Under the pieces are notes generated by a model. That model ran no database searches. It was not told the DNA's origin and was given only the letters and a program-made list of their open reading frames with translations. Both the position numbers and the translations under genes were made by a program. A DNA stretch of 33,610 nucleotides from a virus: positions 1 through 33,610 of the IMG/VR virus record IMGVR_UViG_3300046543_000151; one strand, given 5' to 3'. Of this stretch, positions 125-3,190 are shown one piece after another; the first letter of the stretch is position 1, and each line of letters opens with the position of its first letter.

Positions 125-223
125 ATGTGCGCACGGTGCGGAAGCATGATGCTCGCAGAGCACGACGGCGGATGGTGGGTCTGTATGGTCTGCGGCAATA
201 CGTGGAAGGAGGGAGCGTAGATG
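109..223 (+). repeat. 19-bp direct repeat bracketing the zinc-ribbon gene
   Basis: The sequence gaaggagggagcgtagatg occurs at 109-127 and again, without mismatch, at 205-223. Each copy contains the end of one reading frame (…KEGA-stop), its Shine-Dalgarno site and the ATG of the next gene. The copies are 96 bases apart, exactly one gene unit. This could be the scar of a tandem duplication, or a recombination joint by which the minigene was gained. Confidence 0.85.
125..220 (+). CDS. 31-aa zinc-ribbon miniprotein
   Basis: This is a very short gene. The 31-residue product has two CxxC knuckles, CARC at residues 2-5 and CMVC at residues 20-23, with a GGWW segment just before the second. The spacing suits a minimal zinc ribbon binding one zinc ion. 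The start ATG follows the upstream stop directly (TAG-ATG) and has a strong AAGGAGG site 8 bases upstream. The stop lies in an identical junction that starts the next gene, so the whole gene is bracketed by a 19-base direct repeat (109-127 and 205-223). Function is unknown; a nucleic-acid or protein-binding role is inference. Two independent CxxC pairs and the perfect ribosome binding site make chance unlikely. Confidence 0.7.
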   Translation: MCARCGSMMLAEHDGGWWVCMVCGNTWKEGA

Positions 224-463
224 AGCGATCGTCTCATGAGCGCGGAGGAAATCGAGCGTATGACAGGCTGGAAACGCTTCTCGAAGCAGGTTCAATGGTT
301 TTCCGAGCAGTTCGGCGTGAAGGTCGCCACATGCAGCGATGGCAGTCCTGTCATGACGTGGGCGAACTTCAACGCGCTGAACGCTCGGCGTCTTGGATTA
401 TCATCATCCGATCCGGCACCTAAAAAACGCCTCGTCCTCGTCTCCGACAGCAAACAAAAATGA
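221..463 (+). CDS. DUF4224-like protein next to the integrase
   Basis: This 80-aa protein has the pattern of the DUF4224 family: an N-terminal LMSAEEIERMTGWKR segment, then SKQVQWFSEQFGVKV and a C-terminal LNARRL-like stretch. Members are small phage proteins commonly encoded directly before a tyrosine integrase and are often suspected of excisionase-like DNA binding, though that role is not shown here. The ATG follows an AAGGAGG site. The gene overlaps the integrase start by 4 bases (ATGA), so the two are translationally coupled. An overlapping reading frame at 127-423 on the same strand is a shadow. Family assignment is by motif recall; function as a directionality factor is inference. Confidence 0.75.
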   Translation: MSDRLMSAEEIERMTGWKRFSKQVQWFSEQFGVKVATCSDGSPVMTWANFNALNARRLGLSSSDPAPKKRLVLVSDSKQK

Positions 464-1521
464 ACGCACGTCGCCGAATCATCGATAACGGTCTTCCAAA
501 ACGCGTCTATCCCCGTAGCGGAAGCTGGTATTGGTTTCCGAAGAACGGCCCGTGGATCAAACTCTGCCGGATCGAGGATGGCGAGCGCAAGATGCTGGAG
601 CGCCTCGCCGCCGAGATGAAGAAGCGCGAGGGGTCGAAGGGAACCGGGAATATTCCTGCTTTCGTCGAAATGTACATTGCCGCCAAGAAAGGCGAGCACC
701 GCGAAAAGGGCTGGTCGAATTACGGAAACCCGGTGAAGGCAGACTTCGCCGACGGCGATCTAGAAGATGCCGATACTGCCGCCTGCAAACGCTTCCTTCG
801 AAACAACTGGTCCACGAAGCTCTCGATGCAGCGTGCGATGCGGGCGTTCCTGAGCGGCTTCTTCCAGTGGTGCAAGGAAGAGGGTTACTACGATGCGCCG
901 AACCCGATTACCGGCATGCGGCTTGTTTCTCCCAAGCCGAGGCAGGTGTACATCACGAACGAACATTTCGAGGCCATACGAGCGCAGCTCGCCAGCCAGC
1001 CGATGATCTTGTGCATGGTCGATCTGTGCTACCTGACGTTGCAGCGGTCCACTGAGATACGTGACCTGCGCTGGCGCAAAACCGACGAGAAGACGGCTAA
1101 CTGGGTTGACCGGGATAACGGCGTGATCCACTTCGTGCCGTCGAAGACTCGCGAGTCCAGCGGAATCGCCATTGATTGGCCGATCACGCCTGAGATTGAG
1201 GCGGTGCTGGAGCGCGCGCGAACCACCGGCAACGTCAAATCCCCGTACGTGATCCACACGCCGAAGGGTGGCCAATGGGTCAACACCCACGCGCTGAAGA
1301 TGTGGCATAAGGCGTGCCGAGCGGCCGGCCTGGCGAGTTACAAATACACGATCAAAGACATCCGTGCAAAGGCAATGACCGATGCCAAATCGCAAGGATA
1401 CGAGATGGATGCCCTGATGGTCGCCGCGGCGCACAGCGACATTGCGACGACGAAGGTCTACATGAAAGACCGCAAGACGCCTCTCAGCAATATTCATCTG
1501 AAGTTACCAAAATCAGCATAG
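460..1521 (+). CDS. int: tyrosine-type site-specific integrase
   Basis: This 353-aa recombinase should catalyse integration and excision between attP and a bacterial attB. The N-terminal 60 residues look like an arm-type or AP2-like DNA-binding region (SGSWYWFPKNGPWIKL). Residues about 62-150 form the SAM-like core-binding domain. The catalytic domain shows Arg196 (LTLQRSTEIRDL), Lys229 (SKT), Arg302 in the box II segment KDIR, His325 (AAAHS) and the nucleophile Tyr334 (TTKVYMK). The usual box II histidine is replaced by Lys299, a substitution tolerated in some phage integrases. Length is normal for the family. It is the main gene of the rightward operon and is followed, after one small gene, by the repeat-rich probable attP at 1778-1984. 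Confidence 0.95.
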   Translation: MNARRRIIDNGLPKRVYPRSGSWYWFPKNGPWIKLCRIEDGERKMLERLAAEMKKREGSKGTGNIPAFVEMYIAAKKGEHREKGWSNYGNPVKADFADGDLEDADTAACKRFLRNNWSTKLSMQRAMRAFLSGFFQWCKEEGYYDAPNPITGMRLVSPKPRQVYITNEHFEAIRAQLASQPMILCMVDLCYLTLQRSTEIRDLRWRKTDEKTANWVDRDNGVIHFVPSKTRESSGIAIDWPITPEIEAVLERARTTGNVKSPYVIHTPKGGQWVNTHALKMWHKACRAAGLASYKYTIKDIRAKAMTDAKSQGYEMDALMVAAAHSDIATTKVYMKDRKTPLSNIHLKLPKSA

Positions 1522-1531
1522 GAGAGCAACG

Positions 1532-1777
1532 ATGTTCTCGATCACAAAATCCATTCGCCCGGATAGGTGCGGACTTTGCAAGTGGGCAAATAAAGAAAGC
1601 CGCTATCAAAAGCAATTCGGGAATGCCCTTCCAGGATATGGCTACGACCATCAAAATGGGGTGCTGATGGATGTGCTGGTGTGCAAGAGAATGCCCCCAT
1701 CAACCAATGAAAACGGCAATGGCGTTTCCCCGGTCGTAGGTGATGGAAACTGGTGCGGAGAGTTCGAAGAGAAGTAA
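1532..1777 (+). CDS. Cys-rich small phage protein
   Basis: This 81-aa protein starts 10 bases after the integrase stop with a good ribosome binding site (AGGAGAG, then ATG). It has CxxC at residues 13-16 (CGLCKW), a third cysteine in VLVCKRMPPS at about residue 51, and a C-terminal WCGEFE motif. The arrangement CxxC…CxxxPP…WCGE recalls small cysteine proteins common in proteobacterial phages, which probably bind zinc. No enzymatic function can be named. It closes the rightward operon and its stop lies only about 2 bases before the first repeat of the probable att region. It is not an excisionase by any visible motif. Confidence 0.7.
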   Translation: MFSITKSIRPDRCGLCKWANKESRYQKQFGNALPGYGYDHQNGVLMDVLVCKRMPPSTNENGNGVSPVVGDGNWCGEFEEK

Positions 1778-1778
1778 G

Positions 1779-1984
1779 AATATTAGAAACGATTCTCGGA
1801 ATATTAGAAGCGCCTTACTGGTATTGGCTTTGCGGCAGATTGAATTGAGTGCCGCTCAAAGCGGAAAATTCTGTGCCGAGCCTTATCCAGTAAGGCTATC
1901 AGGCATAACGTTTCTAATATTTTGCTCATATAACAGGCAAGCACTGGCGCGGCTTTGAGCGCATTTCCAAGAAAATATTAGAAG
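1779..1984. repeat. probable attP region with four AATATTAGAA sites
   Basis: The gene-free stretch 1778-2038 is dense in repeats. The 10-mer AATATTAGAA occurs at 1779-1788, 1800-1809 and 1974-1983 on the plus strand and inverted at 1912-1921. The first and the inverted copy extend to a perfect 13-bp inverted repeat (1779-1791 with 1909-1921). Nested inside are inverted repeats of 10 bp (1812-1821 with 1887-1896), 9 bp (1854-1862 with 1952-1960) and 6 bp (1832-1837 with 1850-1855). Position after the integrase, A+T-rich direct and inverted short sites and a central core-like dyad fit integrase arm sites in an attP. The core sequence itself is not proven. Confidence 0.6.
1879..1897. other. candidate att core dyad
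   Basis: AGCCTTA at 1879-1885 and TAAGGCT at 1891-1897 form a perfect inverted repeat around TCCAG. Read as 6-bp arms (AGCCTT/AAGGCT) with a 7-base spacer (ATCCAGT), it matches the geometry of a tyrosine-recombinase core site. It lies between the AATATTAGAA arm-like sites. This is a prediction from geometry only; the host attB is not in the window. Confidence 0.35.
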
Positions 1985-2038: not shown

Positions 2039-3190
2039 ATGAGTACACGCCGGATTGACGATATTGAAGTTCTGCGCGCCATTGCTGTTTTGCTGGTCGT
2101 CGCGTCCCATTTTAGAGCACTGGTATACGCCCCAGGCGCCGTGCTCGCATTCATAGACACGAAGCTCGATCTAGGCGTCGGCGTGGATCTATTTTTCGTC
2201 ATCTCGGGATTCGTCATCACGCCCGACCTGATACGGTCATTCGATGGCGCAAGTTCGACAGGTGATCGCTGGCGCGTCTCGGGCGCCTTCTGGGTTCGCC
2301 GGATCTTCCGAATCCTGCCGTCTGCGTGGCTATGGATGGCGGCGTTCGTCGCAATCTCGGCATGGTTCAACCGGTTCGCCGCCGCTGGTCCGCTGTCAGC
2401 AAATGTCGGTGACGCGCTCGCAGCGCTCGGGCAGTTCGCAAACATCCACTGGTATCGCTGCTACGCTGGAAAGGCCGTATGCGGCGTCAATGCGATTTTC
2501 TGGAGCCTGTCGCTCGAAGAGCAGTTCTATCTCGTGCTGCCGCTCGCGTTCATTCTCTTCCGCCGTCACGTGGTCGCGTTCGCAATCGTCGCCACGGCGG
2601 TGCAATTGTTCCTCGCCCGACCGATGTGGTCGCTGCCGTGGGCGATCCGCACAGACGGGCTTTTCATCGGCGTCCTGCTCGCATTCTTCAGCCTGACGCA
2701 TGGGTATCTCGCATCGCTGCCGTCGTGGTTGCGCGGTGGCTTCGCGCGAATCGTGGCGTTGGTTGCGGTTATCGCGTTGGTATGGAACGGGTGGCTGCTG
2801 ACGCCCGCATGGCCGGGGTTCGTCGCCGTGATAGGTGGCCTACTCGTGTGGATGGCATCGTACGACGCCGGGCTGATCGTGCCTTCGGGCGCACTGAAGA
2901 AGGCGCTACTGTGGGTCGGCTCGCGCTCGTACGCAATCTACCTGATTCATGTTCCCGTCGTGGCGATCACGCTCGAACTGACGAACCGCGTGTTCGATCC
3001 ATCGCTGATCGCGCCGGGTACGCTCAATCCGATGATGATCGCTTTCGCGTTGGCTTTGACGGCGATCCTTGCTGACCTGAACTTCAGGTTCGTCGAGACG
3101 ACATTAAGGCGCGTGGGCGTGCGGCTGTCCGATAGGATTCAGGCACGCGCCACGCACACGACGCATCGCGTCACGGAACCTGCGCGATAG
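2039..3190 (+). CDS. OafA-like membrane O-acyltransferase (probable seroconversion gene)
   Basis: This 383-aa integral membrane protein belongs to the acyltransferase-3 family. It starts with the typical IDDIEVLRAIAVLLVVASHF segment including the family histidine (His24), followed by FFVISGFVI. The conserved FWSLSLEEQFYLVLPL motif is at about residues 155-170, and roughly ten hydrophobic helices follow. Family members transfer acetyl or other acyl groups to cell-surface sugars; phage copies commonly modify host O-antigen and block adsorption of related phages. Position between the probable attP and the tail genes is that of gtrABC in P22, which supports a lysogenic-conversion role (inference). 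A GAGAAAG ribosome site precedes the ATG. The last 20 bases overlap the convergent fibre gene. Confidence 0.9.
   Translation: MSTRRIDDIEVLRAIAVLLVVASHFRALVYAPGAVLAFIDTKLDLGVGVDLFFVISGFVITPDLIRSFDGASSTGDRWRVSGAFWVRRIFRILPSAWLWMAAFVAISAWFNRFAAAGPLSANVGDALAALGQFANIHWYRCYAGKAVCGVNAIFWSLSLEEQFYLVLPLAFILFRRHVVAFAIVATAVQLFLARPMWSLPWAIRTDGLFIGVLLAFFSLTHGYLASLPSWLRGGFARIVALVAVIALVWNGWLLTPAWPGFVAVIGGLLVWMASYDAGLIVPSGALKKALLWVGSRSYAIYLIHVPVVAITLELTNRVFDPSLIAPGTLNPMMIAFALALTAILADLNFRFVETTLRRVGVRLSDRIQARATHTTHRVTEPAR

Follow-up and report, generated by a model that had tools for sequence, protein, structure and literature searches.

Positions 1779–1984 of the window (the whole stretch of DNA that was analysed, a linear viral contig of 33.6 kb) are very probably the intact attachment site (attP) of a temperate podovirus of the P22-portal type, presumably infecting a soil bacterium, and sequence comparisons indicate that this site would be used by the lambda-type tyrosine integrase encoded beside it. 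Sites of this kind, in which a tyrosine integrase serves a lambda-type attP, are already known. At the level of the clade to which this integrase belongs, the frame of the attP is constant, and the 7-bp overlap at its centre appears to have been replaced repeatedly, which would redirect related phages to other host genes. The parts of the contig that were examined contained no recognisable host DNA.

The genes on the left of the site form a pair. A putative excisionase (DUF4224; PHROG 1266, excisionase; positions 221–463, plus strand) is overlapped by 4 bp by the gene of a 353-residue tyrosine integrase (460–1521, plus strand). The integrase matches PF00589 with an E value of 1.8e-12, and its catalytic set, R196-K229-K299xxR302-H325-Y334, is invariant in an alignment with 36 relatives. 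The best PDB match of its AlphaFold model (pLDDT 84) is full-length lambda Int (E=5e-13). The Pfam arm-binding domain gave no match in the integrase; the modelled N-terminus consists of strands 16–19, 22–25 and 33–37 and a helix (42–57) ahead of the core-binding domain. Between int and the attP lies a small cargo ORF of 81 residues (1532–1777, plus strand). This slot, from the int stop codon to the first arm, is occupied by short ORFs that are unrelated between the window, L091 and L339, and is empty in the related contigs L002 and L003, which lack the 81-residue ORF.

On the other side, the attP adjoins an O-acetyltransferase gene (2039–3190, plus strand; PHROG 3333, O-antigen acetylase-like), which is a putative lysogenic-conversion gene. 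In P22-like phages, seroconversion genes are located right beside attP. L002 carries other genes at this position. Past the O-acetyltransferase come structural genes, including that of the P22-type portal.

The site itself is built on four exact copies of the 10-mer AATATTAGAA: the arm sites P1 (1779–1788), P2 (1800–1809) and P'2 (1974–1983) are direct, on the plus strand, and P'1 (1912–1921) is inverted, on the minus strand. The first-pass annotation had already recognised these copies, three direct and one inverted, at exactly these places, in what it described as a gene-free gap just past the integrase operon. Indeed, the excisionase–integrase pair lies to the left and no recognised gene is found inside 1779–1984; a mechanical ORF of 72 residues (1740–1958) that overlaps the array is unsupported. 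Exact copies of the 10-mer are confined to this segment within the whole 33.6 kb, which has no other 206-bp stretch with four copies, and with at most one mismatch there are five matches in the window against 0.64 expected. Shuffling the segment 5000 times by dinucleotides never gave three copies of any 10-mer, let alone four.

The same annotation reported a perfect 13-bp inverted repeat (1779–1791/1909–1921) and an AGCCTT-ATCCAGT-AAGGCT dyad (1879–1897, plus strand; a perfect 6 bp with a 7-bp spacer), and both are present. Taken by itself, the 13-bp repeat carries less weight, because simple palindromes dominated its shuffle count. A second perfect pair of 10 bp had been overlooked: GCCTTACTGG (1812–1821) and CCAGTAAGGC (1887–1896), which are nearly symmetric about the core at 1845–1859 described below. 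In the left half of the attP the arms are followed by TTGAGTGCCGC.

Relatives of the integrase were found with an alignment query; a GTDB scan that used peptides of the integrase itself returned none. Among phages and plasmids, no DNA match to the array or the int region turned up, and in a viral scan for two spaced arm copies the matches listed were swamped by other contigs. Five phage contigs are close to the window by their integrases (L002 and L004, 99% identity in amino acids; L003 and L005, 88%; L091, 85%), and the distant members, at 58–65%, are the viral contigs L093–L099 and L339 and the bacterial loci L009, L010, L011 and L031. The same four-copy topology is present in L002, L003, L004, L005, L091, L093, L094, L095, L096 (where the inverted copy is degenerate) and L339. 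In several relatives that have no cargo ORF, P1 abuts or overlaps the int stop codon. In L002 and L004 the array is flanked on either side by phage DNA homologous to the window; it is therefore internal and uncut, as had been proposed from the phage genes around it. As a separate observation, the integrase is 99% identical to the L002 protein (window 460–1521, L002 7145–8203), whereas the structural regions of the two contigs are only about 78–83% identical in DNA, which suggests a recent exchange of the integration module or a strong constraint on it.

The position of the crossover is given by the integrated relatives. Four prophages could be mapped at both ends (L009, L010, L011 and L031), mostly or all in multi-contig assemblies. 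In each of them only two direct arms follow int and then host DNA begins, and the inverted and direct arms are found at the opposite end of the prophage, 23–41 kb away. This splitting of the array at the core supports an attP in which the 10-mers behave as arm sites. The sequence common to attL and attR is 11–16 bp long: GCTGAATCCATATCAG in L009, TGCTGACCGTACTT in L010, GCTCACTTATTATCA in L031 and CTGCCCATCAG in L011, the last being read by eye from both ends because the longest match returned there by the script was an arm site. All four have the same position with respect to the arms and take the form CTGA-N7-TCAG, with some mismatches in the half-sites; the seven central bases (N7) are identical at attL and attR in every case.

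In the window the corresponding sequence is TTGA-GTGCCGC-TCAA (1845–1859), 34 bp to the left of the dyad. It comprises, on the plus strand, a left half-site TTGA (1845–1848; clade consensus CTGA), the presumed 7-bp overlap or strand-exchange region GTGCCGC (1849–1855), which is variable in the clade, and a right half-site TCAA (1856–1859; consensus TCAG). The assignment is made by register with the relatives, since no integrated copy with the window's overlap was found. An overlap of 5–7 bp would fit the data equally well, the cleavage positions being deduced from sequence.

A core-anchored, gap-free alignment of 11 non-redundant attPs supports this position. In all 11, 35 bp separate the end of P2 from the core and 52 bp separate the core from the start of P'1, so the form CTGA-N7-TCAG is in rigid register with the arms. 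The information content is 1.4 bits for P2, 1.33 and 1.32 bits for the two core half-sites and 0.34 bits for N7, and in an unbiased scan of all dyads in the same attPs the core ranks first as the most conserved. The dyad at 1879–1897 and its counterpart on the left, the palindrome-like element CCTTACTGGTATTGG (1812–1828, plus strand), are moderately conserved elements; the former is an accessory element or due to chance. Most relatives retain a further stretch past the inverted arm (1922–1965; TTGC-CA-A-AA-AGGCA ... GGCGCGGCTTTG), and cousins such as L108, L110 and L387 retain part of it; it is possibly a site for the excisionase or a host factor.

The host targets are known for the mapped prophages. 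Uninterrupted attB sites were found in related genomes by joining the flanks (about 320 bp), with 91% identity over 320 bp for L031, 90% for L011 and 93% for L010. An ECF sigma factor (region 4) is encoded at one of the three confirmed sites, and the other two lie in the genes of an M20-family peptidase and an OprD porin. Host protein genes are interrupted in three of the four mapped cases, with no obvious replacement sequence, and lysogeny would therefore silence these genes until excision.

The flanks of L009 match several short copies per Paraburkholderia genome. Two of these copies exceed the cut-off score of RF02278 (Betaproteobacteria toxic sRNA), and the interrupted copies fall below it. 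L327, a locus of another record, is an insertion at this same site, next to the same host gene. It therefore appears that a given overlap has a given target; in the L327 record the phage integrase could not be located. The insertions seen in sRNA genes (L191/L192, which is the L009 prophage, L327, L420 and L421) amount to two prophages of this arm-site family in the multicopy RF02278 gene. The attL side seems to re-form the 5' part of the RNA and to contribute a GC-rich hairpin with a T-rich sequence after it, possibly a replacement terminator.

The host and attB of the window's own phage were not found in the genomes scanned: the 14-mer TGAGTGCCGCTCAA has nine matches in 206 Paraburkholderia/Caballeronia-type genomes, at unrelated loci, which is the chance level. 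A 17-mer match to the window core in L433, in a gene which its translation suggests to encode baseplate J, was rejected, as no arm copies lie near it and such a match is expected by chance given the author's estimate of the collection size. A tRNA anticodon target for GTGCCGC was also rejected by reasoning, since neither strand has a T at loop position 33.

Three other explanations have been weighed against these data. The first-pass annotation had placed the crossover core in the dyad at 1879–1897, which does have a perfect 6-bp symmetry, a 7-bp spacer and a position between arm sites. A crossover there is very unlikely: the attL and attR of the four relatives exchange at the equivalent of 1845–1859, the position of the dyad falls within phage DNA at the far junction of each of the four prophages, and the dyad is not kept as such, being fully paired (6/6) in the window only and showing 0–4 of 6 pairs in the ten other attPs. 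The earlier interpretation therefore stands for the attP, the arm sites and the uncut state, and had to be corrected for the core. Instead of serving for attachment, the repeats might be operator or replication-origin iterons, or form a regulatory RNA. Direct and inverted repeats would be in keeping with such a role, as would the strong folding of the strand (z -5.4), which results from the long inverted repeats between the arm sites, but integration has physically divided the array in four genomes, and Rfam gave no match. The prophage junctions refute this as the main function, which makes the proposal extremely improbable; the repeats may nonetheless have a dual use.

That N7 differs in nearly every lineage and that the insertions lie in unrelated genes could also be explained by low-specificity integration of the Tn916/Tn1549 type, in which N7 would be a coupling sequence gained at each insertion, with no homology needed. 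The identical overlaps at the two ends argue against this, attL and attR having the same 7 bp in four of four prophages, and the empty sites of the nearest relatives carry them too. Moreover, two genomes have an insertion at one and the same target (L009 and L327), and the window, L002–L005 and L091 retain one N7, GTGCCGC, despite a diverged surrounding attP, L003 in particular being clearly diverged from the other carriers in the remainder of the site. Integration of the Tn916 type is thus very improbable.

In the favoured interpretation, a lambda-type attP with its core at 1845–1859, the N-terminal domain of the integrase would bind the four AATATTAGAA copies, and its core-binding and catalytic domains would take the TTGA/TCAA half-sites and cut at the borders of GTGCCGC. 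The partner in recombination would be a host attB with the same 7 bp, and the excisionase, whose gene immediately precedes int, would drive the reaction in reverse.

This organisation resembles that of lambda, where arm sites also flank a core with a 7-bp overlap between inverted half-sites and the xis and int genes are adjacent; the fold predicted for the window integrase is likewise closest to full-length lambda Int. Unlike in lambda, the arms have another sequence and are arranged as two direct copies on the int side and one inverted and one direct copy on the far side, and no IHF or Xis sites were identified in the window attP. The nearest described parallel to the clade is the integrase clade of the HE-PICIs, which has an arm-like motif at a fixed distance, changing attP cores and many protein-gene targets (PMC10111431). 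In both cases a single integrase clade has many protein-gene targets, which are interrupted. However, the HE-PICIs are satellites that insert in prophage late genes, whereas the elements described here are apparent prophages and viral contigs with chromosomal targets, and the doubled HE-PICI motif, tgTGTATTGCantgTGTATTGCa, differs from the motif in the window-clade arrays that were read.

The integrases that target tRNA-Pro anticodon loops in Burkholderiaceae prophages (most of L012–L030 and L345–L384) are about 40–54% identical to that of the window. The anticodon stem-loop serves as their core, with the sequence CTGA-TTTGGGA-TCAG or, in the TGG type, its complement, and the arm topology of the tRNA-Pro loci L352, L355 and L356, and of the non-tRNA cousin L387, is similar to that of the window. 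They differ in their arm motifs, of the TTAGAC- and TTAGGGA-types, and in their constant tRNA overlap. In L372, L379 and L384 the array is reversed relative to int, roughly as a mirror image of the window layout.

In an unrooted tree of 53 integrases, the 13 members of the window clade form a single group (SH-aLRT 100). The rows outside this clade that have a recognised target nearly all use tRNA-Pro genes, with the anticodon stem-loop as core. The window clade carries ten different N7s and none of the tRNA-Pro anticodon-loop overlaps. The use of tRNA genes is likely ancestral on this sequence evidence, although unproven because the tree is unrooted. The cousins L372/L379 and L387 have non-tRNA overlaps too, and the departure from tRNA may therefore have occurred more than once.

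The link between anticodon loop and 7-bp overlap, and the idea of secondary sites, are already established (PMC8371274). No paper on the window's integrase clade was found in a literature search that missed most subscription journals. From a lambda experiment, Rutkai and co-workers, as cited in PMC8371274 and PMC10111431, reportedly proposed in 2006 that secondary sites have a role in changing integration specificity. Switching in lambda is experimental, whereas the window clade offers a natural pattern only, with no switch observed in action. The likely route would be integration at a secondary site, followed by an excision that retains the new overlap.

On balance, we lean towards seeing the clade as a natural overlap-swapping module that left the tRNA-Pro anticodon loop, kept its arms, spacing and CTGA/TCAG half-sites fixed, and acquired at least ten overlaps, reaching protein genes and a multicopy small-RNA gene through repeated capture of secondary sites. 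The corrected position of the core decides where attB must be sought. With a natural set of attPs that combine one frame with ten overlaps, the evolution of specificity mainly through the overlap DNA rather than through the integrase becomes testable.
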